From Paenibacillus dendritiformis (lineage in GTDB: Bacteria; Bacillota; Bacilli; Paenibacillales; Paenibacillaceae): a DNA stretch of 64,000 nucleotides. The stretch lies in the NCBI RefSeq assembly GCF_021654795.1, contig NZ_AP025344.1, positions 5,456,501 to 5,520,500 of the forward strand. Direction: 5' to 3'. Shown here piece after piece: positions 4,512 through 62,600 of this stretch. Each line of letters opens with the position of its first letter. The first letter of the stretch is position 1. The notes under the pieces were generated by a model. That model saw only the letters and a list, made by a program, of their open reading frames with translations. It was not told the origin of the DNA and ran no database searches. Position numbers and translations under genes: made by a program.

Positions 4512-5073
4512 TTCCTTCACCTCTCTCGCTCATGTGCACAACTTCTGACTTCGCTCGATGTTAAGGATGACACAGCAGTTCTGCTACAGGAAATAATCCG
4601 CAGCTCCCTCCCCTCCAATGTTCCGATTCGTCGCTTTTAGCCTACACCATAATATTCATTGATTTCCAGAACCTATCTTATCTTTTTTGAAAAATTTCAA
4701 CATATCTTCTTGTCATTTTCGACGTACGCAGCCATATCAAGGGGCTGCTCCCTGCTTTATTACATAATGACGGGAGACAAGACGGGATAACAATGAAGGC
4801 GGGAAGCGCGGAAGACGGCGGGGGTAATGCCGCGGAAAACGATGAGGCAGCGCAATCCTGCGTAAACCAGGCTGTTGAGAAACCACTGTTTTTTACGAAG
4901 GGGTGGAGATGGTCCATTTTCCTCATCCAGACATTGGCTCTCAGCGCGTCTTAAATCGTTTTTTACCGGGAGAAGAGATCCATCGCAGGTAAAGAGTCCC
5001 ATAAACTGCTCAATGCCCTGATTTTACGGGAACCAAGCGACCGCGTCGGATGCTGGGGGCATCATCGCCTTCA

Positions 5074-5140
5074 GGAAGCATTATCAGCCTACTGGAAGCA
5101 TTATCGGCCTGCTGGAAGCACTATCGGCCTGCTGGAAGCA
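5074..5140 (+). repeat. 20-bp tandem repeat, 3.3 units
   Basis: Three consecutive units of GGAAGCATTATCGGCCTGCT with one or two changes each, plus a partial fourth unit. The same motif occurs inverted at 31185-31231 in the other element copy with about two units, so the copy number differs between the two. Confidence 0.8.
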
Positions 5141-5172
5141 TCGTTGCCTCCTGGGGCTTGGACGTGCGGAGG

Positions 5173-5359
5173 AAATTGCTGCTATTTTACAGGAATTTCG
5201 GCTTCATGAGTCCCCATCCCGGGGAATTGCTGCAAATCTACATCATTCTAGGCCCTTTTGCTTCAAACCGAAGCGAAACGGGGGAAAGTCCTGTCATTTT
5301 GCAGGATTCCCTTTCTGGAAAAGTCGTCCCTATCGAATTGCTGTATTTATGCAGGATTC
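5173..5359. repeat. Array of four small palindromes inside element copy 1
   Basis: Palindromes at about 5173-5198, 5225-5247, 5286-5310 and 5335-5359 share the form AATTSCTGC, six bases, GCAGSAATT, where the six-base loop varies and is usually A/T rich. The second is the most degenerate. Each would fold into a short hairpin. They correspond one to one with four palindromes in the inverted copy at 30965-31152. Confidence 0.65.
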
Positions 5360-5460
5360 GCTTACCGAATCGGCGTGTCTCAGGAAATGGCGCCGTTTTC
5401 AGGCCGGTGGAATTATCCATTTTCCTACTCATTACTTCTTTTCTCAACAACCTGGTAAAC

Positions 5461-5840
5461 GCAGCAATTTTCGCGAGTTGAGTTGCGATTTGATGAGATT
5501 CCTGCAAAAGCGCATCATTTTCGCCGATTTTTGCTTTGAATCCATTGATAGTGCTCAGATTAATGTTGTTTTGCAGGAATTGGTCCAACGGAATAAACGC
5601 TATAAGGGAAACCTGCATTTTGGCAGTTTTTTCGGGAAGTCGAGCCGTGGAAGGAAGGCGGGGCCGAAGGCACCACCGAAGGCACCAGACAAGTAGAACG
5701 AACAAATTGAACCAACCGTCACATCAAAGAATTCGAATGAGGAATACTTGGACATCCGGCAAAACGGGCGGCTCTTTTACACAAGCTGGGGCCGGCTCAC
5801 CGCGGCGAAGAACTGCATGCGAGACAGCCCCTCGCCTGGC
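5461..5840. other. Intergenic stretch without a gene
   Basis: No credible coding frame. It contains weaker matches to half-palindromes of the same family (TGCAGGAAT or ATTCCTGCA, near 5500 and 5570). Its first 80 bases resemble, loosely, the sequence next to element copy 2. The 4521-4853 stretch on the other side of the element, upstream of the phosphoesterase gene, also shows no gene. Confidence 0.4.
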
Positions 5841-30593: not shown

Positions 30594-30645
30594 CTACTCC
30601 ACCAAAGCTGCAGTATCTCCCGCCACTCTAGTCATCTGCTCCACC

Positions 30646-30718
30646 AATGCTGCAAAAATGCAGGAATTTTTATTGACACGAGGTTGCGAAAATAAGATTG
30701 CTGCAAAAATACAGCAAT
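30646..30718. repeat. Two intact palindromes of the CTGC family
   Basis: AATGCTGC, AAAAAT, GCAGGAATT at 30646-30668 and ATTGCTGC, AAAAAT, ACAGCAAT at 30697-30718. They lie outside element copy 2 and show the family in its unoccupied form: arms of eight or more bases around a six-base loop. Confidence 0.7.
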
Positions 30719-30964
30719 TCCCCTACGGCAAGGCATATATAGCGTTCAAAATGGCGAAATAATGTAATTTTGCATGATTTTCTTGGAATTTAGCCTCTTG
30801 AGGTTAAAAATGCTGCGCCTGTCAGGCTGTTGAGAAAGAAGTTTTGAGCAGGAAAATGGATATTTCCACCATCCTGAAAACTGCACCATTTCCCTAGACA
30901 CGCCCATCCGGCAGGCGAAATCCGCAAACTCCACGATTTTTCCAGGCACGCCGATTCGGTAAGC

Positions 30965-31152
30965 GAAATCCTGCAGAAATACAGCAATTCGATCTGGACG
31001 ACTATTCCAGAAAGGGAATCCTGCAAAATTACAGGAATTTCCCCCGTTTCGCTTCGGTTTGAAGCAAAAGGGCCTAAAATGATGTAGATTTGCAGCAATT
31101 CCTCGGGATGTGGACTCATTAAGCCGAAATTCCTGTAAAATAGCAGCAATTT
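30965..31152. repeat. Array of four small palindromes inside element copy 2
   Basis: At about 30965-30990, 31015-31042, 31081-31102 (degenerate) and 31127-31152. They are the counterparts, in reverse order, of those in copy 1. Each keeps a six-base spacer between CTGC/CTGT and GCAG/ACAG. Confidence 0.65.
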
Positions 31153-31184
31153 CCTCCGCACGTCCAAGCCCCGGGAGGCAACGA

Positions 31185-31231
31185 TGCTTCCAGCCGGCCG
31201 ATAGTGCTTCCAGCAGGCTGATAATGCTTCC
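31185..31231 (-). repeat. 20-bp tandem repeat, about 2.3 units
   Basis: The same repeat as at 5074-5140, inverted, with one unit fewer. Confidence 0.75.
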
Positions 31232-31465
31232 TGAAGGCGATGATGCCCCCAGCATCCGACGCGGTCGGTTGGATCCCGTAAGATCAGGCCATTGAGTAGT
31301 CTATGGGACTTTTCACCTGTGATGTGGATCTCTTCTCCCGGTAGAAAAAAATCGATTTAAAACGCTCTAAGAGCCAAAGTTTGGATGAGGAAAATGGACC
31401 TTCTCCACCCCTTCACAAAAAACAGGGGTTTTCCAACAGCCTGGCCTGTGCAGCATTTTCAAGCG

Positions 31466-31565: not shown

Positions 31566-31624
31566 AAAAAAAGACTGTCGACAGGACTTTGTCGACAGTC
31601 TGGCGCACCCGATAACGGGTGCGC
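31566..31624 (-). terminator. Double-hairpin terminator of the small peptide gene
   Basis: On the minus strand GCGCACCCG/CGGGTGCGC is followed directly by GACTGTCGACA/TGTCGACAGTC and then TTTTTTT. Both stems are perfect. It starts 26 bases past the stop at 31651. Confidence 0.85.
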
Positions 31625-47608: not shown

Positions 47609-50600
47609 TTAGAAAATAATATCAATGGCCTCTAGCACATCTTGCTCCTGTTCGGATTGCCCGTTCAGGGAAATATCCTTCAACAGCACCGAAGGCTGTT
47701 CGCAAATTTGGGTGATGATCGCGAGCAGGTCCTGAGCGAAATTGTCGATCAGATTGCGTGTGAACAACTTGGTGGCATATTCAAACTGCCCGTTCATTCC
47801 CTCATCCAGCAACGAAATGACCAAGGTAAGATCAAATTGGGAAACCGTATGAGTTTCCGGATAAGATTCGATCTTGATATCCCCGAAGCTTGGAACGTTA
47901 TCTTCGTTCGTTTCCAGAGCAAACACGACATCGAATACAGGATTGCGGCTTTGATCTCGCGGCGCCTGCAGCTTTTTCACAAGCTCCTCGAACGGATAAT
48001 CCTGATGGTCGTAGGCCCCCAGCATCGTTTCTTTGACTTCGTTCAAGTAAGCGAGGAACGTCTTCTCCCCGGACGGATAATGGCGAATCGCCAAAGTGTT
48101 GACAAACATTCCGATGAGCGGCTCCAGGTCGGCATGTGTGCGGCCCGAAACCGGCGTGCCTACAATGAAGTCTTCTTGTCCCGAGTACTTGCTGAGCAGG
48201 ATGGAATAGGCCGCCGATAACACCATATAAAGGGTGGCACCGTTCTCATCGGCGATGCGCTGCAAGCTGTCGGTCATCTGCTTGTCGATGCTGAAAGGCA
48301 GCACATCTCCCTCAAAGCTGCGAGCGGCAGGTCTGACAAAGTCCGTAGGCAGTTCAAGCGTCGGCAGTTCGCCTTCCAGCACGTCCAGCCAGTAGGCTTC
48401 CTGACGTTTCAGCCGCTCTTTTACAGGTTCGGACTGCTGCCAAGCGGCGAATTCCTTGTATTGAATCCGAAGCGGTTCCAGCGTCTCGCCGTTATACAAG
48501 CGCAGCAGCTCTGCGACGAAGATGCCCATCGACATGCCATCCGTGACGATATGATGAATGTCCAGCATGAGCAGATGCCGCTCCGCTTCCCATTCGACTA
48601 AGCCCACACGCAGCAGCGGCGGCCGCTCCAAATCAAAGACGCGCACAAAGCCGTCTGCGATGCTCTTCGTTTCACTTTCCGTCGCTTTCGTATACTCGAC
48701 GGCAAACTTCAAGTCCGGATAAATCCGTTGTACCGGTTCGCCGTCGACCATTTCGAAGCCGGTTCGCAAAATTTCGTGACGAGCGATCAATCCTTTGAGC
48801 GCCGCCTCGAATTGTTTCCGTTCCAAGCGCCCGACGAGAACCGTCATGCCGGACATGTTGTAGCTAAGCTCGGCTCCTTCCATCTGCTGCTGGATGTACA
48901 GCCGTTTTTGCACGGAGGAAAGCGGATAGTAATCCCTCTTATCCAGAACCGGAATGGAGAGGTGTTCCTGCCGCTCCAATTGGCTGATCGCTTCGGCCAT
49001 CGCTTCGATGGTCGAGTGCCGGAACACATCCCGCAGCGGCAGGTCCACGCTCAGCTCCTTGTGCACCTTGCTGACCAGCGTCGTCGCCCGCAGCGAGTGC
49101 CCGCCGAGGTCGAAGAAGTTGTCCGTCACGCCAATCGTGACCGGCCCGAGCACGTCCTGCCAGATGGCGGCCAGTGTCGCCTCCAGTTCGGTGCGCGGCG
49201 CCACGTATTCGCGGCCTCCGCCTGCTCCCCCTTCCGGCGCCGGCAGCGCCTTCCGGTCAATCTTTCCGTTCGGCGTCAGAGGCAGGCGCTCCAGCTCCAC
49301 GAAGTACGACGGAATCATGTAACCCGGCAGCTCGCTGGAAATCGCCCGTTTCAGGTCTGCCGCCGTCAGGCCTTCTTCCGCTGTATAATAAGCGCACAAA
49401 GCTTTCTGACCTTCTTGATCTTCCCTGACGACAACGACCGCTTCCTTCACGCCACCTGCACTCAGCATCTTCGCTTCGACTTCGCCCATCTCAATCCGGT
49501 ACCCCCGGATTTTCGCCTGATTGTCGATCCGGCCGATGAAGTCCACGTTGCCGTCCTCCATCCACCGCGCCAAGTCTCCCGTGCGGTACAGCCGCTCGCC
49601 CGCGGCGAACGGGCTGTCTACGAACTTCTCTTCTGTCAGCTCCGGACGGTTTAAGTACCCGCGCGCCACGCCGGCTCCGCCGATAACCAGCTCGCCCAGC
49701 ACCCCGACCGGCACCGGGTTCAGGTGCGCGTCCACAATGTAGAATTTCGCATTCAGCCACGCTTTGCCGATCGGCACGCTGCCCGTCTTCGGCAGCTTCT
49801 CCAGCGGCTCGTCATAGAAGCTGGAGTCGATCGCCGCTTCCGTCACGCCGTAGGCGTTGATGATCCGGAACAATGAGCCGAAGCGTTCCTGCAAGGTCCG
49901 GTAATCCGCCACGCTGCAGCTGTCCGAGCTCGTGATCAACAGCTCCATCCCGCTCATATCCAGCCGCTGCTCGTGCACGTATTCCAGGAACGGCCCGATC
50001 AGCGCCGGCGTCGATTCGACGATGGTGACCCGCTCCCGCTCCATCCAGTGGTGCAGACGAGACGGATCGATCCGGTCGTCCTTCGGCACAATCACCATCG
50101 TGCCTCCGTTATACAGCGTCCGCGCGATATCTCCCACGAACACGTCGAACGAGAAGCTTGCGAGCTGCAGCAGGCGCACCGGGAACTGATCCAACCGGTA
50201 TTCCCGCCGGTAGCCCGCTGCCGTGTTCACCAGGCTGCGGTGCTCGATCATCACGCCCTTCGGCCTGCCCGTCGTTCCCGACGTATAGATCACGTACGCC
50301 AGATCCTCCGGACGGGCTTCATGGAAGCTGTCGGTGCCGACATGCTGATGGCTCTCATCGCCGTCGTCCACAGCATCCGTCAGCTTGCCGGAGACCATGC
50401 CGGAGCCAATCGGCGCATTCGCCCGCTCCTCGCTGTACGACGCTTCGTCGTCCAGGTACAGCACCGCCGCCAGCGCCAGCTCCTCTTCGCCGAGCCAGGC
50501 TTCGGCGCGTTCCCGCAGCGGCATTTGCGTCAGCAGCACCTTCGCTCCGCTGTCTTCGAGCATGAACCGCACGCGGTCTGCCGGATAATCCGGATCGAGC

Positions 50601-53600
50601 GGCACATACGCCCCGCCCGCTTTCCAGACGGCCAGCACGGCCACCAGCAAGTCCACCGAACGCTCGGCGAGAATGCCGACGATCGACTCCCGGCCGATGC
50701 CGCTTGCGCGCAGCGTGGCCGCCAAGCGGTTCGCCCGCTCGTTCAGCTCCGCATACGTCAGCCGTTCGTTCTCGTACACGACGGCCTCCGCTTCCGGCGT
50801 GCGCTCCGCCTGTTCCTCGAACAGCCGGTGGAACGCGGCCGCAGGAGCCGCTTCCGGCTGCGTCGGGTTGAACGCGCCGAGAATTTGCTCTTTTTCCGCC
50901 GGTGTCAAAATGCCCAGCTCGGCAATAGTCGCCGACGGGTTGCGGAGAATGGATTCAAGCAGCTGCAAGTAGTGAGCGGCCAATTTCTCCACCGTTTCGG
51001 TTTTATAAAGAGCAGTGGCGTATTCAAACAGATATTCCAAGCCTTCCTCGATCTCCGTGACGTCCAGGCTGAGATCGAATTTAGAAACAATTTCTTCGCT
51101 GGCATACGTTGACAAATGGAGTCCGGGAAGCTGGATTTCCAAATTCTCTGTATTCTGCAAAGCAAACATCGTATCGAACAGCGGATTGCGGCTTAAATCG
51201 CGAGCTACGTTCACCTTATCCACCAGTTCCTCAAACGGATAATTCTGATGTTCAAAAGCGCCCAGCGTCGTCTGCTTAATTTCCTTCAAGTAGTCAAGGA
51301 ACGTCTTACCGGCAGCCGGATAACTGCGGATGGCCAGAGTATTGACGAACATTCCGATCAGCGGCTGAACGTCGCTGTGATTTCTTCCCGCAATCGGCGT
51401 ACCGACCACCACGTCTTCTTGCCCTGTATATTTTTGCAATAATATTGTATAACCAGCAAGCAGAACCATGTAAAGCGTTGCGCCGTTCTCGGCTGCAAGT
51501 CGTTTCAGACCCTCGCTTTTCTCCTTATGCATAAACAATTGCAGCGTGCGGCCCTCGTAGCTCTGCATAGCCGGGCGCGGATAGTCCGTCGGCAATTCCA
51601 AAACCGGCAGCTCTCCGCGGAACATGTCGAGCCAGTAGGCTTCCTGCTTGGCAAGCTGAGCCTTCTGCTCGTCCGATTGCTGCCATACCGCATAATCTTT
51701 GTATTGAATGCGGAGCGGCTCCAACTGCTCCCCGCTGTACAAGCGGACGAACTCTTCGATCAGTACGTCAATCGAAACACCGTCAGATACGATATGATGC
51801 GTATCGAACATCAGAATGTGCCGGTCCGGCGCCAGTTCGGCAAGGCCTACCCGCAGAAGCGGCGGCTTCGCCAGATCAAACGGACGAACGAATTGACGCA
51901 CCGTTTCTTCCGCCTGCTCCCCGCTGATCCGCACATATTCCACCTGGAAGGCGGCTTCTTCGTAAATCCGCTGAACCGCTTCGCCTTTTACCATCTCAAA
52001 GCCGGTACGCAGCGTTTCATGACGAGCTACGAGCCCGCGGAACGCTTCTTCAAACCGCTGCCGGTCGAGCTCCCCTTCGAGCAGCATAGCTCCCGGTATG
52101 TTGTAGCTCAGCTCGGCTCCTTCCAGCTGGTTCAAGATATAGAGACGTTTCTGAGCGGAAGAGAGCGGATAATACTCGCTAGGTTCCGCAGCCGGAATAG
52201 CCGTGAACGAGCCGATCTCCAGCCGCTCCATAGCCGCGGCCATTTCCTCAACCGTCGAGTAGCGGAATACGTCGCGAAGCGGGAATTCAACGCCTAGCTC
52301 CTTATGCATTTTGCTGACAAGCGTCGTCGCCCGCAGGGAGTGTCCGCCGAGGTCGAAGAAGTTGTCCGTTACGCCTACCGCCTTCTCCCGAACAAGCACC
52401 TCCTGCCAAATGACGGCCAGCTTCGCCTCCAGTTCGGTGCGCGGCGCCACGTATTCGCGGCCTCCGCCTGCTCCCCCTTCCGGCGCCGGCAGCGCCTTCC
52501 GGTCGATCTTTCCGTTCGGCGTCAGAGGCAGGCGCTCCAGCTCCACGAAGTACGACGGGATCATGTACCCCGGCAGCTCGCTGGCCATCGCCCGCTTCAG
52601 GTCCGCCGCCGTCAAGCCTTCTTCCGCTGTATAATAAGCGCACAAAGCTTTCTGACCTTCTTGATCTTCCCTGACGACAACGACCGCTTCCTTCACGCCA
52701 CCTGCACTCAGCAGCTTCGCTTCGACTTCGCCCGTCTCAATCCGGTAGCCCCGGATTTTCGCCTGGTTGTCGATCCGGCCGATGAAGTCCACATTGCCGT
52801 CCTCCATCCACCGCGCCAAGTCTCCCGTGCGGTACAGCCGCTCGCCCGCGGCGAACGGACTGTCTACGAACTTCTCTTCCGTCAGCTCCGGACGGTTCAA
52901 GTACCCGCGCGCCACGCCGGCTCCGCCGATGACCAGCTCGCCCAGCACCCCGACCGGCACCGGGTTCAGATGCGCATCCACAATGTAGAATTTCGCATTC
53001 AGCCACGCTTTGCCGATTGGCACATGGCCTGTCCGCGGCAGCTTCGCCAGATCCTCGTCGTAGAAGCTGGAGTCGATCGCCGCTTCCGTCACGCCGTAGG
53101 CGTTGATGATCCGGAACAACGAGCCGAAGCGTTCCTGCAAGGTCCGGTAATCCGCCACGCTGCAGCTGTCCGAACTCGTGATCAACAGCTCCATCCCGCT
53201 CATATCCAGCCGCTGCTCGTGCACGTACTCCAGGAACGGCACGATCAGCGCCGGCGTCGATTCGAAGACGGTGACCCGCTCCCGCTCCATCCAGTAGTGC
53301 AGACGAGACGGATCGATCCGGTCGTCCTTCGGCACGATCACCATCGCGCCTCCGTTATACAGCGTCCGCGCGATATCGCCCACGAACACGTCGAACGAGA
53401 AGCTGGCGAGCTGCAGCAGCCGCACCGGGAACTGATCCAACCGGTATTCCCGCCGGTAGCCCGCCGCCGTGTTCACCAGGCTGCGGTGCTCGATCATCAC
53501 GCCCTTCGGCTTGCCCGTCGTTCCCGACGTATAGATCACGTACGCCAGATCCTCCGGACGGGCTTCATGGAAGCTGTCGGTGCCAACATTCGGATGGGTC

Positions 53601-56600
53601 TCATCGCCGTCATCCACAGCATCCGTCCGCTTGCCGGAGACCATGCCGGAGCCAATCGGCGCATTCGCCCGCTCCTCGCTGTACGGCGCTTCGTCGTCGA
53701 GGTAGAGCACCGCCGCCAGCGCCAGCTCCTCTTCGCCGAGCCAGGCTTCGGCGCGTTCCCGCAGCGGCATTTGCGTCAGCAGCACCTTCGCTCCGCTGTC
53801 TTCGAGCATGAACCGCACGCGGTCCGCCGGATAATCCGGGTCGAGCGGCACATACGCCCCGCCCGCTTTCCAGACGGCCAGCACGGCCACCAGCAAGTCC
53901 ACCGAACGCTCGGCGAGAATGCCGACGATCGACTCCCGGCCGATGCCGCTTGCGCGCAGCGTGGCCGCCAAGCGGTTCGCCCGCTCGTTCAGCTCCGCAT
54001 ACGTCAGCCGGTCGTTCTCGCACACGACGGCCTCCGCTTCCGGCGTGCGCTCCGCCTGTTCCTCGAACAGCCGGTGGAACGCGGCCGCAGGAGCCGCTTC
54101 CGGCTGCGCCGGGTTGAACGCGCCGAGAATTTGGTCTTTTTCCGCCGCCGTCAAAAGCTCCAACTCATTCACGCGGATGTTCGGGTTAGCCGCAACCTTC
54201 TCCAGTGCCTGGGCAAAATGACCGTGGATCAGCCTGATGTCTTCCTCTCTGAACGTCAGCGCATTGTACGTAAACCGCAGCAAAATATGCTCTTCCGGAA
54301 TGACGGTAATGTCCAGGTCGTAGTTCGTTTGCTCCGGCGACTGGATATTAGCGATTTTCAGCGCTTCTTTGTCTCCGCCGACGACCTGCTCAATCTGTTC
54401 TTCCATCGGATAATTTTCAAAGACCATAATATGGTTGATCAAGTCGCGCTTTTGCTCGCTCACCGACTGAATTTCGAACAGCGGGAACGTTTCGTAAGCT
54501 CCCGATGCCAGCGCTTGATCCTGGATTTTTCTCAAAATATCGGCTACCGTCTCCTCGGCTTTGGCTTGAATACGGACCGGGATCGTATTAATAAACAGGC
54601 CGATCATGCTTTCGATGCCCGGAATTTCCGCCGGACGCCCGGATACGACGGAGCCGAATACGACATCCTCGCTGTTGTTGTATACCTGCAGAACCAGTCC
54701 CCATACGGTCTGCATGAACGTATTGAGCGTCACCTGCTGCTGGCGCGCCACCCGCTTGATTTGCCCGGTCAGTTCCTTGCTGAGTTCCACATCGAATTCA
54801 GCCGCTTCAAAAGCGCCCTGCTTCAGCTGCGTTTTCTCCTGGGGCAGCTTGGTCTGCTGATCGTAACCCGCCAAATACTCGGACCAGTAACGCGAAGCTT
54901 TCGCGGCATCCTGAGCTTCCAGCCATTCGATATACCGGGAGTACGAGGTAACCGGAGGAAGCTCCGGCGTCCGCTTCTCCTGGAACGCGAAGTAGGTGTC
55001 GAACACTTCCTTGATCATGAAGGACATGCACCAGCCGTCCATCAAAATGTGATGATGACTCCAGATCACATGGTAGGACTCGCCGCCTGTGCGCAAAACC
55101 GTCACGCGCATAAGAGAGCCTCGGGCCAAATCGAACTTGTTCGCTTTATCCGCGCTGACGAAACCGGCTATCGTCTTCGCCGGGTCTTCATCGCTTGCCG
55201 AGCGAATATCCTCGAAGTACACTTCACACTTCCGCTCGCGGAATACCACTTGAATCGGCTCGTCTCTCCAGCCGGTAATAAAGTTGGTCCGCAGCGCCTC
55301 ATTCCGCTGCACCAGCGTATCCAATCCTTGGGTGAAGGCTTCGACATTCAGGCTTCCATACAGATCGAAGGTCACCTGTTCGAAGTAAGCTTCCGAATCG
55401 GCATCCAGCAGGCTGTGGAACAACATTCCTTTTTGCAGCGGAGTCAGGGTGTATACATTCTCCAGTTCGCCGAGCGCCGCCGTATGTTCGGCCAGCCGCT
55501 CCAGTTCCTCCACCGTCACATCTTGAAGCAGAACGTCGCTAGGCGTAAGCTCCGGCCGCTCTTTCGATACGCAATGGCTGATGACTTCACGCAAGCTCGA
55601 TTGAAGCAGGGTGCCCAGGCGCTCTACCGTTTCCCGTTTATACTGGGTTTCCCCATAACGGATCGTGAGTTCCAGCACTCCTTCCGACACCATGCCGTTG
55701 ATATCGAGGACATACTCCATCACTGCATTCGGGCTTGAATCGGAGCCCGGGCTGAACGGAGACGGCTGCGAGCCGCTGCTTTCGTAATCCTGGTCGAACT
55801 GACCCAAATAGTTAAAGCTGATCTCCGGCTCCAAAGCGAAGCGCTCGCCGTCACGCGGCACCGACAAATAACGCAGGATGCCGTAGCCGATTCCTTTGTT
55901 CGGAATGCGGCGCAAGCTTTCTTTAACCTGTTTCACCTGATGACCGAGCGCCTGGGCGTGACCCGGCTCCAGAACGACAGGGAATTGGCTTGTAAACCAG
56001 CCTACCGTGCGCGTAATGTCCACATCCGGCAAAATATCTTCCCGGCCGTGGCCTTCAAGATTCACCAGCACGCGTTCCCGGCCGCTCCAAGCTTGTACCG
56101 CGAGGCCAAGCGCGGCAAGCAGCAAATCGTTCATTTCCGTATGGTAAGCACGGTGTGCCTGCTTCAGCAGCTGTTCGGTTTCCTCCGCCGTCCAGCGGAC
56201 GGTCACGAGCCCGCTGTCCTTCAGCTTGGATCTGCCTTGTTCAAAATCTTTCGGAAGCGGCTCATAGCTCAATTGCTCAATATGCTGCCAATACTCTCGC
56301 TCGCTTTCCATCGCCGGACCGTTCGCATAATCAGCGAGCTGTTTCGCCCACGTTTGGAATGAATCCGTTTTGAGCGGCAGACGGATCGGCTGCCCTTGCA
56401 GCGCCTGCTCATAGCCGGCAGCAAAATCTTCAAGCAGAATCCGCCAGGATACGCCGTCTACGACCAAGTGATGGATCGCGATGAGCAGGTGGTCGCCGTC
56501 GTGGCAGCGGAACAAGCCGAGCTTCACCAGCGGGCCGTTCTCCAGATCGATGCTCGCTTGAATGGCATTCGCCTTAGCCTCTGCCGCTTCTTTTACGTCG

Positions 56601-59600
56601 CCGACTCCCTTGCAATCGACCACTTCCAGATCGAACAGCGCTTCGTTCTCCCCGGCGCCGCGGTTCCAGGCCATATAGCCGTTCTCGGTTTGGCGGTAAA
56701 CCGTACGGAGAGCATCGTGATGCACGACAAGCTGACGCACCGCTTGGCGTAAAGCTTCTTCGTCAAAGCCATGCTTGGAGAACTGCATAAACGCCTGGTT
56801 GCTGTGATGCACGTCGGCCGGATTTTGTTCAAAGAACCAGCGCTGAATCGGGGTCAAGATGACCTCTCCCGTCACTTCGGCCTGGCTTGCCGTTCTCTCC
56901 GCCGTCTGCAGCTGCAAACTAAGGGCGGAAATCGTCGGGTAATGGAACAAATCTTTCATGACCAGCTTGTACCCCGTTTGCAAAAGACGGGACGATACCT
57001 GCAAGGCCTTGATCGAATCGCCGCCGACCGCAAAGAAATTGTCCATCGTGCCGACCTGATCCACGCCCAGCACCGACTGCCAGACCGACGCAAGCGCTTG
57101 CTCGGCAGGAGTACGAGGCGCCGTGTATGCAGCCTCGGCACGAATGCTTCCTTCCGGCACAGGCAGCGCTTTACGGTCGATCTTCCCGTTCGGCGTAAGC
57201 GGCATTTGATCCAGGCGCATGATGCGCGAAGGCACCATATGGGAAGGCAGCGCGGCGTCCAGATGGGCCACAAGCCCTTCCAGACCGAAGCTGGAATCCG
57301 CTACGACATACCCGCACAAATATTTCTGCCCCCGCTCGTCCGTCCGAGCGATGACAAGCGCTTGACGCACGCCGGCAACATTTTGCATAGCTGCTTCAAT
57401 TTCTCCAAGCTCGATCCGATAGCCGTGAATTTTCACCTGATTGTCGATCCGGCCGATGAAGTCCACGTTGCCGTCCGGCATCCAGCGCGCCAGGTCGCCC
57501 GTCCGGTACAGCCGCTCCCCAGCGGCGAACGGGCTGTCTACGAATTTCTCCGCCGTCAAATCCGGGCGGTTCAAGTAACCGCGGGCCACACCCGCTCCGC
57601 CGATAATCAGCTCGCCCAACACCCCGACCGGCACCGGCTTCAGATTCGCATCCACGATGTAGAACTTGGCGTTCAGCCACGCTTTCCCGATCGGCACGCT
57701 GCCCGTCTTCGGCAGCTTCTCCAGCGGCTCGTCATAGAAGCTGGAGTCAATCGCCGCTTCCGTTACGCCGTAGCTGTTAATAATACGGAACTGCGAGCCG
57801 AAGCGCTCCTGCAAGGTGCGATAATCCGCTACGCTGCACGCATCCGAGCTTGTGATCAGCAGCTGCATCGAGCTGAGGTCCAGACCTTCAGCATGTACAT
57901 GCTCCATGAACGGTACGATCAGCGCCGGAGTCGATTCGAACACCGTCACGGCGTAGTCGCGAATCCAGCCGTAGAGGCGGGTTGGATCGATCCGGTCGTC
58001 CTTCGGCACGATCACCATGGTGCCGCCGTTGTACAGCGTCCGCGCAATGTCGCCGACGAACACGTCGAATGAGAAGCTGGCGAGCTGCAGCAGCCGCACC
58101 GGGAACTGATCCAACCGGTATTCCCGCCGGTAGCCCGCCGCCGTGTTCACCAGGCTGCGGTGTTCCACCGCCACGCCCTTCGGACGGCCCGTCGTACCGG
58201 AGGTGTAGATGACGTAAGCCAAATCGCGCGGCTTGTTCACATTCGCCGGATTCGATGCGAGATCCGCCGCCAGTACGTTCTTCTCGGCTTCTGCCGTGGC
58301 CGACGTTTCGGCAGAAGCCGCTTCCGACGCTCCGAGGCTGTACGTCGCGGCGTCGTCAAGCGCAAGCACCGTTTGCAGCGCTAGAGCTCCGTCGCTGCGC
58401 CAAGCTTCCGCCTGCTCCAGCAGGCGGGTCTGCGTGAGAAGCACCGACGCCCCGCTGTCCGCGAGCATATACTCGATCCGTTCCGCCGGATAGTCCGGGT
58501 CGAGCGGCACATAAGCGCCGCCCGCTTTCCATACGGCGAGCACCCCGATCAACAGCTCCGCCGAACGGCCGGCCAGAACGCCGACCACCTGCTCAGGCTT
58601 CACCCCGCGCGCCCGCAGCGCATACGCCAGACGATTCGCTTTGGCGTTCAGCTCCGCATACGTCAGCTTGCTGTCTTCGTAGACAACCGCCAGCGCTCCC
58701 GGAGTGCGCTCCGCCTGCTCCTCGAACAGCTCGTGGAACGTTCTCTCTCTCCACGACTCATCCGCTTCCAAGCCTGTACCCTCTGCGGCGGGTTGCTTCG
58801 CAAGAACCGAAGACGACACGTCAAACCCGACCAGCAAATCATGCTTTTCGCTGTCCGTCAAAATATCCAAATCCGCAATACGCGCACCCGGCTGAGCCAG
58901 AATCGACGCCAAAAGCTGCTCGTAATGAGCCGCCAGTCGTACCATCGTTTCCTGTCTAAACAACGAGGTAGCGTACTCGATCTTGCAAACCAGCTCGTTA
59001 TCGGCTTCCACGATATCTAAGCTGAGATCGAACTTTGCCGTCTTTTCCTCGATGTCGAACAGCGACCATTGCAAGCCTTCCAGGGTTACATCCAAGCTTT
59101 CGTGCTTTTGCAAAGAAAACATAGTGTCAAACAGCGGATTCCGGCTTAAATCCCGTCTCACCTGAAGAGCTTCCACCAGCTCCTCGAACGGATAGTCCTG
59201 GTGCTCATAGGCTCCAAGCGTCGTTTCCTTCACTTCCTGCAAGTAATCCAGGAATGTCCGTTCCGCCGCCGGACTCAAGCGTAGGGCCAGTGTGTTGACG
59301 AACATGCCGATAATCGGCTGCAGGTCGGCGTGAGAACGGGCGGCAATCGGAGTGCCGACCACGATATCTTCCTGTCCCGCGTATTTATGAAGCAATACGG
59401 AGTACGCAGCCAGCAAAAGCATGTACAGCGTCGCCCCCGAATCGCCGGCAAGCCGTTTGAGAGCTTCGCTTTTCTCCGCATCCAGCGTAAACGTGAGCGT
59501 CTGACCGTCAAACTGCTGGACGGCCGGGCGGGAGAAGTCGATAGGCAGCTCAAGAACCGGAAGCTCGGAGCTGAATACCCCGCGCCAGTATTCCTCCTGC

Positions 59601-62600
59601 CGTTTGATGCGCTGGCGCTGCTCCTCGGATTGCTGCCACACGGCGTAATCCTTGTATTGAATCCGCAGCTCCGGCAATTCTTCTCCATTGTAAAGCCGCA
59701 CGAATTCGCGCAGCAGCACGTCCATGGAAAGGCCGTCCGAACCAATATGATGTATATCCAGCGCGAGCAGGAATTTCTCTTTCTCCAGTTCGATCAGCAG
59801 GGCGCGCAGCAAAGGCGGCTGGGCCAAGTCAAAAGGCTGAATGAAGCCTTCAAGAATAGCCGCAACCTGATCTTCGCTTGCTTGAAGCTTCTGGACCTTA
59901 AAAGCTGCGAGCGGATGAATTCGCTGAACCGGCTCCCCATTCACGATTTCAAAACCGGTGCGCAGCATATCGTGCCGGTTCACCAAAGTAGTCAGCGCCT
60001 TTTCCAATTTGACCTCGTTCAAAGCCCCCTCCAATTGCAAGGCGCTTGGGAGGTTGTAATTCAGCTCCGAGCCATCCAGCTGGTGCAGGACGTACAGCCT
60101 TTTTTGCGCGGAGGAAACCGGATAGTACGCTTTCTCTTCCGCTTTCGGAATCGAGCTGTGCCGCGTTTCCTCCAAGCTGGCAATAGCCCCGGCCATCGAC
60201 TCTACCGTCGTATAGCGGAACACATCGCGCAGCGGAAGTTCGACGTTCATTTCCTTCCGAATCTTGCTGACAAGGTTCGTCGCCCGCAAGGAGTGGCCTC
60301 CGAGCTCGAAGAAATTGTCCAGGACTCCAATGCCGGAGTAACCCAGCACTTCCTCCCAGATCTTCACAAGCTGGGACTCCGTCCGGTTACGCGGCGCTAC
60401 GTATTCGACGCCCGTTTGCAAGCCGCCTTGCGGCTCCGGCAGCGCTTTGCGGTCCACTTTGCCGTTGGACGTCAGCGGCATGCGCTCCAGCTGCACGAAG
60501 TACGACGGGATCATGTACCCCGGCATTCCCTGGGCCAGCGAGGTTCTCATTTCACTGACCGTCAGCATCCGGTCCGCCACAAAGTAGGCGACAAGCGCCT
60601 TCTCGCCCCCGCCGTCCTGACGGGCGAGCACCACCGCTTCTTCCACGCCCTCGACGTTCAGAAGCTGCGTCTCGATTTCGTCCAGCTCGATCCGGTACCC
60701 GCGGATTTTGACCTGGTGGTCGATCCGGCCCAGGTATTCGATGTTGCCGTCCGGCAGCCAAGCCCCCAAGTCGCCCGAGCGGTACAGCTTCTCCCCCTCC
60801 GCAAACGGGGAATCGACGAACTTCTCCGCCGTCAGATCCGGACGGTTCAGGTATCCTCTCGCCAGGCCTTCCCCGGCCACGTACATTTCGCCCGCTACGC
60901 CGATCGGCACTGGGCGGCGGTTTTCATCCAGGACGTACACCTTCAGCGTCGGGATCGGCTTGCCGATATTGCTCTTCGCCGCCTCCATTTCGACCCGCGT
61001 AATTTCCTTATACGTCACGTGAACCGTCGTCTCGGTAATGCCGTACATATTGATCAGCTTCGTCTCCGGGTACTTCGTCTTGAAGCCCTTGAGCAGCAGC
61101 GGACTCAGCGCTTCGCCCCCGAAGATGACGTTGCGAATCCGCAGATCGTACGGATGATCCGCCAAGACCTCACGCAGCAGCTGGTAGAAGTACGTTGGCG
61201 TCTGGTTCAAAATCGTGACCTGTTCGCGGCCCAGCAGCGCCAGGAAATCGGCCGGATTTTTCGCCGTGAGCGGCGGTACGATGACCAGCTTGCCTCCGTA
61301 CAGCAGCGCTCCGTACATTTCCCAGACGGAGAAATCGAAGCAGAACGAGTGGAACAGCGTCCACGTGTCGGACGGCCCGAAGTCGAACAGGTTCTTTTCG
61401 TTGAACAGGAGGCGCACCACGTTCTTATGCTCGATCAGCGTTCCTTTCGGTCTGCCGGTCGTTCCCGACGTGTAGATGACATAAGCCAGGTTGCCCGGTC
61501 CGGAAATCGGTTCCAGGTTCAAAGCGTCCAGCGCACCTTCGGAGTCCGCCCCTCTGTCGCCCCAAACGAAATCATCCAATTCGAGGCGCGTTCCTGCGAA
61601 GTCGGTCTTCTCGTGCAGATGCTTTTGAATCAGCAATAACGGCGCGCCCGAATCCTCGATCATGAAGCGGATGCGCTCCTCCGGGTAGTCGGGATCGACA
61701 GGCACGTAGGCTCCGCCCGCTTTGAGAATCGCCAGAATGCCGACGACCATATCGAGCGAGCATTCGGCCAGAATCGCTACCAGCTGGTCCGCTTCTACTC
61801 CCGTCTCCCGCAGCTTCCGCGCAAGGCGGTTGGATCGCTCGTTCAGCTCGCGGTAGGTCAGCTGCCGCTCGTTCATGACGGCGGCCACGTTGTCCGGGTA
61901 AAGCTCTGCCTGCTCTTCGAACAAGCCATGAATCGTCTGCTGCCGCGGGTAGTCCGCCTCCGAATCGTTGAAACCGCGCACCAGCTCGCGGATTTCCTCC
62001 TCCGTGAGCATTTCCAGCGAGGCAATATCCCCGTCCGGCGCTGCTGCGATGGTTTCTAACAGCTTGTCATAATGTTTGGCGAACCGCTCCGCGGTCTCCT
62101 GTTTATACAAAGCCGTTGCGTACTCCAACCGGCATTCGAGCTGACCATCCAGCTCCGAAATGTCTAGGAGCAGCTCGAACTTGGATGTTCGGTTTTCCAG
62201 CGGATAAAACGATTGCTCCAGACCCTCGACGACAATTTGCTCGTTCTCCGTATTTTGCAGGGAGAAGAACGTATCAAAGAGCGGATTCCGACCAGTCGCG
62301 CGCGGAATGTGAAGACTTTCCACCAAGTCTTCAAACAAATAATTTTGGTGTTCGAAAGCCCCGAGCGTGATGTCCTTGATTTCTTCCAGGTACGAAAGGT
62401 ACGGCTTGGAACGCTCCGGACGGCTGCGAATGGCCAGCGTATTGATAAACATTCCTACGATCGGCTGCACTTCTTCCTGCGTTCTTCCGGCAATCGGCGT
62501 TCCGACGATCAGATCTTCCTGACCCGAATATTTATGCATAAGGATGGAGTAAGCCGACAGCAGCACCATGTACAGGGTCGTCCCCGTCCGTGCCGCCAGC

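Follow-up and report, generated by a model that had tools for sequence, protein, structure and literature searches.

A putative composite IS1182-type MITE of Paenibacillus dendritiformis in the loops of regularly spaced palindromes, of which it carries four

Introduction

Insertion in short palindromes has been described for several mobile elements, which are summarized here from the accessible portions of the papers cited. Some members of the IS1182 family target palindromes (Siguier et al., according to PMC5678879), with duplication of the loop sequence among the outcomes in a model figure of the same article, and IS1272 replaces a stem-loop (PMC5678879). The IS3-family elements IS1397 and ISKpn1 insert in enterobacterial REP sequences (PMC1525189), and QMITE2 of Coxiella burnetii is a MITE carrying a palindrome that is targeted by IS1111 (PMC10969869). 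The accessible part of the latter review mentions neither IS1182 nor Paenibacillus. Regularly spaced palindromes in high copy are also known as BIME or REP clusters and as REPINs (PMC2817692); REPs of the GTAG/CGTC type are treated in PMC3733652, with no mention of Paenibacillus in the part available. The literature that we found, as far as it was accessible, describes neither a Paenibacillus palindrome array nor an IS1182 MITE carrying its own targets; since the coverage of subscription journals was poor, this absence is only weak evidence of novelty.

The element analysed here lies in a 64,000-nucleotide stretch of the Paenibacillus dendritiformis chromosome (hereafter the window; positions 5456501-5520500 of a single 6.55-Mb contig) and resembles each of these systems in part. 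It is akin to the IS1182 family, in that the transposase of a related IS in another Paenibacillus genome (G007) scores above the NCBIfam cut-off for that family, but it differs from IS of the family by lacking a transposase and carrying its own targets. Unlike IS1272, it keeps the stem and duplicates the 6-nt loop, of which the empty site shows one copy; the criterion for IS1272-type stem-loop replacement is unmet, both stem halves and two loop copies being present. Repeated palindromes serve as targets, as for IS1397 and ISKpn1 and likewise for an IS3-family element of the same genome (12 of 12 copies in a loop), but the element of the window is a non-coding one of IS1182 type that targets palindrome tetrads of the Paenibacillales. 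As in QMITE2, a MITE-borne palindrome is used by an IS; there, however, the IS targets the MITE, and nothing is said, in the part of the source available, of a MITE targeting the palindrome that it carries. Finally, short palindromes in high copy and with regular spacing are shared with BIME/REP clusters and REPINs, from which the present arrays differ in being strict units of four palindromes, with spacings of ~51, 61 and 50 bp, and in occurring across four families of one order.

Results

Two copies of the element in the window

Copy 1 of the non-autonomous IS1182-type element spans 587 bp (4868-5454; coordinates are those of the window, with no strand assigned unless given). Its left end, CAGGCTGTTGAGAAA (4868-4882), recurs with one mismatch as a near-complement at 5440-5454, and the element is flanked by the target duplications GTAAAC (4862-4867 on the left, 5455-5460 on the right), which correspond to the palindrome loop and occur only once at the empty orthologous site of genome G014. 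The 587-bp segment, its 15-base ends and the GTAAAC repeats on both sides are thus exactly as given, in coordinates and letters, in a preliminary description of this DNA, which had also noticed four palindromes within the element; the matrix scan described below places these at 5169-5202, 5220-5253, 5281-5314 and 5331-5364. All ORFs overlapping copy 1 are short, and the four that were tested have no Pfam match at E ≤ 0.01; there is no transposase gene inside the element. The occupied palindrome (P1; left half plus loop 4848-4867, loop copy plus right half 5455-5474) is the first of a host tetrad, followed by P2 (5492-5525, 51 bp from P1 once the element is excised), P3 (5553-5586, 61 bp from P2) and P4 (5603-5636, 50 bp from P3).

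Copy 2 (30823-31443, 621 bp) lies in the opposite orientation to copy 1, between the duplications GCCTGT (30817-30822 and 31444-31449). Its host tetrad (30640-30822) consists of palindromes at 30640-30673, 30691-30724 and 30752-30785 and the occupied fourth, the left half of which starts at 30803; the tetrad that it bears (30961-31156) comprises palindromes at 30961-30994, 31011-31044, 31072-31105 and 31123-31156. Also present in the window are a perfect, terminator-like hairpin (AGACTGTCGACA...TGTCGACAGTCT, 31572-31601), ~130 bp past copy 2, and an ORF of 5451 codons (47609-63964, minus strand).

Both window copies align to a 722-bp copy of the element in G014 (L182), made up of 169, 387 and 166 bp: two mini-elements flank a middle segment, in direct orientation, alike along their entire length and each with both IS1182-type ends. 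By alignment to this full composite, copy 1 consists of a nearly complete mini-element A (4868-5020, minus strand) with its own eroded inner end at ~5006-5020, a captured middle segment with the element-borne tetrad (5021-5399), and an internally deleted remnant of mini-element B (5400-5454, minus strand). Copy 2 resolves likewise into a mini remnant (30823-30876), the middle segment (30877-31284) and a mini-element (31285-31443). The inner mini ends recur in many copies, and the inner junctions, AAAACT-GCACCATTT and GATCCCG-TAAAAT, resemble halves of the target palindrome by eye. Read in this way, the element is shown to be a composite of two ~160-bp minis around a segment with four target palindromes. 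The composite history rests on anatomy, since solo mini-elements flanked by a clean duplication were not encountered.

Spacing and distribution of the palindrome tetrads

In 464 kb of the genome (20 pieces of 20 kb from all around it plus the window), the matrix scan detected 27 palindrome sites at a score of at least 20, against none in three simulated controls. The palindromes are grouped in fours, with centres ~51, 61 and 50 bp apart; among distinct neighbour distances below 400 bp, 50 (104 cases), 51 (84), 61 (86) and 62 bp (5) stand out and no other exceeds 8, in a count that includes many element-borne, homologous palindromes. The 28 complete host tetrads of the genome (24 element sites with the element removed and 4 intact) have distances of 50-52, 61-62 and 49-51 bp. 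By eye, the host tetrads at six loci (L012, L015, L030, L064, L065 and L088) seem to be adjoined by a hairpin whose arms resemble GGGGCTGTC/GACAGCCCC, and tetrads with such a hairpin may belong to a longer dispersed repeat.

A sequence-only tetrad model, built from 19 tetrads and applied to the best 24 candidates per genome, matched 46 of the 98 genomes from the order at E ≤ 0.01. In 32 of them the best E was ≤ 1e-6; by a count from the match table, these 32 fall in four families. In an even draw of 119 genomes from the phylum, 18 matched: besides the own genome, two belong to its family and 15 are recorded only as of the same phylum (kinship is unlisted for 81 genomes without a match). Each of these 15 had one or two partial matches of ~16-24 bits, the best with E 5.8e-5, and nothing outside the order fell below that value in this draw of 119 genomes. 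Because of these weak matches, only the 32 genomes with E ≤ 1e-6, and not the 46, were counted. The preliminary description had spoken of a small palindrome family; its members are parts of ordered tetrads that occur in many more genomes than the element does. Sampling of 400 kb from the own genome revealed four tetrads, and 200 kb of another genome, G015, contained two, in one of which three palindromes were visible; by extrapolation, there may be tens of tetrads per genome. Two loci of other genomes (L249 and L251) hold long tandem rows instead of tetrads, with 9-11 palindromes in view at a period of 51-52 bp, and at two model matches in other genomes (L246 and L255) the loops are, by eye, apparently longer than 6 nt.

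The tetrads could be RNA features, that is, four hairpins in 3' untranslated regions that would act, for example, in mRNA stability or termination. The palindromes are able to form hairpins, and, of 26 tetrad loci, 24 have one or more neighbouring genes that end towards the tetrad (11 between convergent genes, 13 between tandem genes), the other 2 lying between divergent genes, although the gene context rests on crude ORF calls and some of these loci are weak model matches; by the same crude calls, 15 of the 26 overlap a mechanical ORF of at least 90 codons. Such hairpins, however, would not be expected to keep a spacing that is constant to 1-2 bp and close to whole helical turns, the consensus fold of 19 tetrads is weakly paired (RNAalifold), with a covariation term of only -1.05 kcal/mol, the arms are often unmatched by eye (for example, GCATCA opposite CCTGC), and a search of six loci returned no Rfam family, bar two weak matches far under the cut-offs. 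We regard an RNA function as unlikely, if still a serious contender. Pairing of P2 with P3 was also considered and dropped by eye. Given that 51, 61 and 50 bp are near 5, 6 and 5 turns and that folding support for RNA is scant, our best guess, held with modest confidence, is that four dimers form a scaffold bound to the DNA of the tetrad; no binding protein is known.

The constant spacing might, on the other hand, reflect nothing but common descent, if the tetrad were an ancient dispersed repeat, multiplied as a whole and unconstrained in its spacing. Indeed, BLAST connects 26 of the 28 own host tetrads with at least one other through matches of at least 60 bp, the best pairs being 70-88% identical; judged by these matches, the own-genome tetrads are in part a dispersed repeat family, and their constant spacing may partly result from common descent. 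The model, moreover, penalises indels, and the distant tetrads were found with it. Across 101 between-genome pairs drawn from 15 tetrads (own-own pairs and one same-genome pair excluded), arm identity averages 0.675, a value biased upwards because the arms were found by the matrix, whereas linkers, which are unaffected by this bias, are near random, with 0.307 identity vs 0.276 when shuffled (highest single pair 0.87). The distances in these 15 tetrads of different genomes nevertheless stay at 50-51, 60-62 and 49-51 bp, and unconstrained linkers of that age should hold indels, which argues against common descent alone. A scan requiring perfect arms missed most tetrad members, the arms of which are imperfect, and a matrix for single palindromes was used instead. 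With this matrix, 200 kb of G015 from outside its training set gave pair distances of 51, 62, 113 and 164 bp only, and the shuffled sequence gave none; the sole tetrad in the sample of another genome, G035 (L237), had been in the matrix training set and is not independent evidence. At one locus compared in four genomes, the arms diverged less than the linkers (0.059 vs 0.114), a difference that is not significant (p = 0.09). To the extent that such comparisons allow, neither the model nor descent alone accounts for the tetrad spacing, and descent as the sole cause appears improbable. Since linkers change but palindromes and their spacing persist, we infer, with less confidence and in the absence of binding data, that the tetrads are recognised by a DNA-binding protein, of which four dimers would lie on one helix face.

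Copies of the element in the genome

The 15-mer of the element ends, with at most two mismatches, occurs 61 + 46 times in the genome vs 2 + 2 times for a reversed control; the ends are not due to chance. At least 40 long copies were identified by BLAST (best 40 of 137 candidates scored). Sixty loci were scanned for end pairs, and the 45 with both ends readable were used; the other 15 lacked one end or any pair or, at L078, had a chance pair enclosing ordinary genes, which was rejected as an element copy. No match to the element was found in the plasmid and phage collections.

An exact 6-bp duplication flanks 32 of the 45 copies and an exact 7-bp duplication one further copy, against identity in 25 of 1980 pairs when flanks of different copies are compared. 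With the element removed, the consensus of the 32 sites is the palindrome GAAAATCCTGC-N6-GCAGGATTTTC, of which the 6-bp repeat forms the loop. By matrix score, a palindrome is present at the insertion site of 40 of the 45 copies, a figure that is partly circular as 32 of these sites had served to train the site matrix, but palindromes and duplications also hold outside the training set, in the IS copies of G007 and G018 described below. Among the 12 copies without an exact duplication of at least 6 bp, 5 match at 5 of 6 positions. In six others (L004, L005, L011, L015, L063 and L089), the loops of the two flanking palindrome halves are unlike, a pattern that recombination between copies would produce; the last, L087, shows a 5-bp repeat without a palindrome. 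The preliminary description had proposed 6-bp duplications in palindrome loops as a check on other copies, and named copies without a duplication or outside loops as grounds for refutation: the check succeeded, and the exceptions do not amount to a rule, with the palindrome absent at 5 of the 45 sites. In L005, L011, L015, L063, L089, L208, L215 and L172, the flanking palindrome halves come from different sites, as inter-copy recombination would leave them, and L005 has two middle segments in tandem. It is possible that copies between unlike palindrome halves are points of genome rearrangement.

Regular clusters of short palindromes in many copies resemble REP/BIME, and one could suppose that palindromes and element alike are spread in the manner of REPINs, by a RAYT (Y1, HUH) transposase recognising hairpins in single-stranded DNA. 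This is very improbable in view of the duplications and inverted ends of DDE type, the lack of a GTAG tag in the palindrome consensus and the absence of any Y1_Tnp (PF01797) match at E ≤ 0.001 in the own genome; the same search found matches in 5 of 14 control genomes.

Source of the transposase

Element DNA was found at strong E-values in 4 of 97 other genomes (G005, G007, G011 and G014), with short, weak matches only in G006 and G061. Pairing of ends in G007 uncovered a 1564-bp IS with the ends CAGGCTGTTGGAAAACCCCT and CAGAGTGTTGAGAAAGTCTA and a 488-aa transposase, which scores 432 bits against NCBIfam NF033551 (IS1182; cut-off 270) and matches Pfam DUF772 and DDE_Tnp_1_6. The 28 transposase matches in that genome represent 26 copies 98-100% identical and two pieces of one divergent copy. 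At one end of this IS, 33 bp are 91-97% identical to the element (BLAST); the other end yields matches of 11-22 bp only, in the copies having any, and none to window copy 1 beyond its 15-base repeat. By these alignments, the IS and the element have only their termini in common.

The site preference of the IS is that of the element. Exact 6-bp duplications flank 14 of the 17 distinct copies read in G007, with palindrome halves on both sides in all 17, and further palindromes at tetrad distances adjoin most of the 15 copies examined. Another genome, G018, has 18 matches to the G007 transposase, 12 of them full-length relatives of 57-59% identity, and the 11 copies tested all have an exact 6-bp duplication in ACTGC-N6-GCAGT palindromes. 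As the copies in both genomes sit in loops, loop targeting belongs to this IS1182 transposase lineage. With shared ends, no transposase and the same 6-bp duplication length (32 of 45 element copies, 14 of 17 copies of the G007 IS), the element agrees in these three features with a MITE of the IS1182 family, and the full-length relative with a transposase that the preliminary description had suggested looking for thus exists. The claim of a transposable element is accordingly supported, with the qualification that the element, having no transposase, needs an IS1182 enzyme in trans: among 19 genomes of the genus searched, the own genome, G005 and G011 have no match to the G007-type transposase at E ≤ 1e-40, so that action in trans is only inferred. 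An IS1182-family IS such as that of G007 remains the likely source, its role in mobilisation being inferred.

Other candidates within the own genome were rejected. An IS with a 454-aa DDE_Tnp_1 transposase (L093-L102; nine full copies and one broken, at sites without the target palindrome by eye) has ends GAATCAATTTCAT... unlike those of the element and is therefore not the source, and the remaining DDE_Tnp_1 and DUF772 matches have no paired ends of the element's kind. A short DUF772 transposase fragment (L103, own-genome position 5159359), also without paired element-type ends, lies ~1 kb from the element copy L063.

Use of the loops by other insertion sequences

The palindrome loops are shared with other transposons. 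An IS3-family element of the own genome (L186-L197; ~1.4 kb, ends CTCCTAGGCCCCC; OrfB 179 bits against NF033516, cut-off 160, with rve PF00665) sits in a palindrome loop in all 12 copies, with 4-bp duplications, and six of the 12 are inside element-borne palindromes, at four distinct positions, two of which were seen twice. In G011, an IS110-family element occupies the loop of an element-borne palindrome at five loci, which do not give a rate as they were picked for enlarging the element, and a second IS1182-like element, below the family cut-off, does so at one locus. IS256 copies at two G011 loci are within the element linker, outside the loop, so the loop is not used by every IS. That the IS3- or IS110-family enzymes themselves move the element is hardly credible: they insert in the same loops, some copies inside the element, but the IS3-family element makes 4-bp duplications (12 of 12) and has different ends, whereas the window element has 6-bp duplications and ends matching the IS1182-family IS.

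The element itself was not found in the palindromes that it bears, neither among the 45 copies of the own genome nor in the 9 evaluated of 19 G011 loci and 3 of 7 G005 loci. The difference between 0 of 45 element copies and 6 of 12 IS3 copies is significant (Fisher p = 2.5e-5; p = 6e-4 using 4 of 10), but weaker than it appears because the two IS3 positions seen twice were perhaps copied along with the element, and it is confounded by age, since the IS3-family element may have arrived once element-borne palindromes were many. The absence of the element from its own cargo palindromes may, accordingly, represent target immunity or just age. Of the self-propagating repeat system envisaged in the preliminary description, one half stands, in that each copy exports four targets and these are used by the IS3-family element; use by the element itself was not seen.

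Empty sites in related genomes

The joined flanks of copy 1 were searched in 19 genomes of the genus, of which 5 match, the own genome included. Three of the four matching relatives (G014, G005 and G011) were taken as orthologous; the G007 matches are arrays, and orthology at this locus is unestablished. In G014, the upstream flank (78% identity) leads into an intact tetrad with one GTAAAC loop, that is, an empty site, with no match on the downstream side beyond the array. In G005, P1 is empty and P2 holds a 476-bp copy with the duplication AAAAGC, both outer flanks matching, and in G011 the P1 insertion is in common with the own genome (701 bp, duplication GTAAAC). The own genome additionally contains, at L151, a paralogous empty site, the unbroken ATGCTGC-GCCTGT-GCAGCAT that copy 2 splits. 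At the level of sequence, insertion is directly demonstrated, beyond inference. Empty sites in sister strains, suggested as a check in the preliminary description, are thus available as the single-loop orthologous site of G014 and the empty P1 of G005, and the segment is not ancestral at orthologous loci, which would have refuted that description. The insertion shared with G011 implies that the segment is not young, but the notion that it is an old resident sequence, around which palindrome and direct repeat arose by chance, can be discounted almost entirely, being refuted already by the empty sites in G014 and G005 and confronted with 32 of 45 copies that follow one rule exactly.

Discussion

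We are highly confident of the overall explanation of the window element as a composite IS1182-family MITE, moved in trans by a DDE transposase that targets palindrome loops; the tetrads as protein sites are held with less confidence. The ends, duplications, loop targeting, empty site, matching IS, composite anatomy and use of cargo palindromes by another IS are shown by comparison of DNA sequences, and this type of IS as the mover of the element is inferred. Two ~160-bp minis with IS1182-type ends, in the same orientation, flank a chromosomal segment holding a tetrad, and the outer ends would now mobilise the whole unit. The simplest origin, which is inferred, is that minis inserted in palindromes on either side of a tetrad, whereupon the outer ends moved everything. 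An IS1182-family DDE transposase, presumed to act in trans, would join the element to the two borders of the 6-nt loop in palindromes of the form AATNCTGC-N6-GCAGNATT, thereby duplicating the loop.

Only tentatively do we put forward a wider reading, in which the tetrad is a new chromosomal site of the Paenibacillales, with four dimer-binding palindromes on one helix face (~5, 6 and 5 turns), probably in tens per genome. Several transposon families would land there, and this MITE would have captured one tetrad, exporting four sites per jump and avoiding its own cargo through target immunity.

An element that carries its targets alters the usual limit on a site-specific transposon, because its spread makes more landing sites: with a tetrad captured by the MITE, every jump exports four new ones. 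In the own genome another IS does use these exported sites, and the element itself, as far as seen, does not. The targets are perhaps more important than the element. An ordered tetrad with a spacing kept within 1-2 bp in four families suggests a constrained nucleoprotein structure, and a labelled tetrad would be the bait for its putative binding protein.
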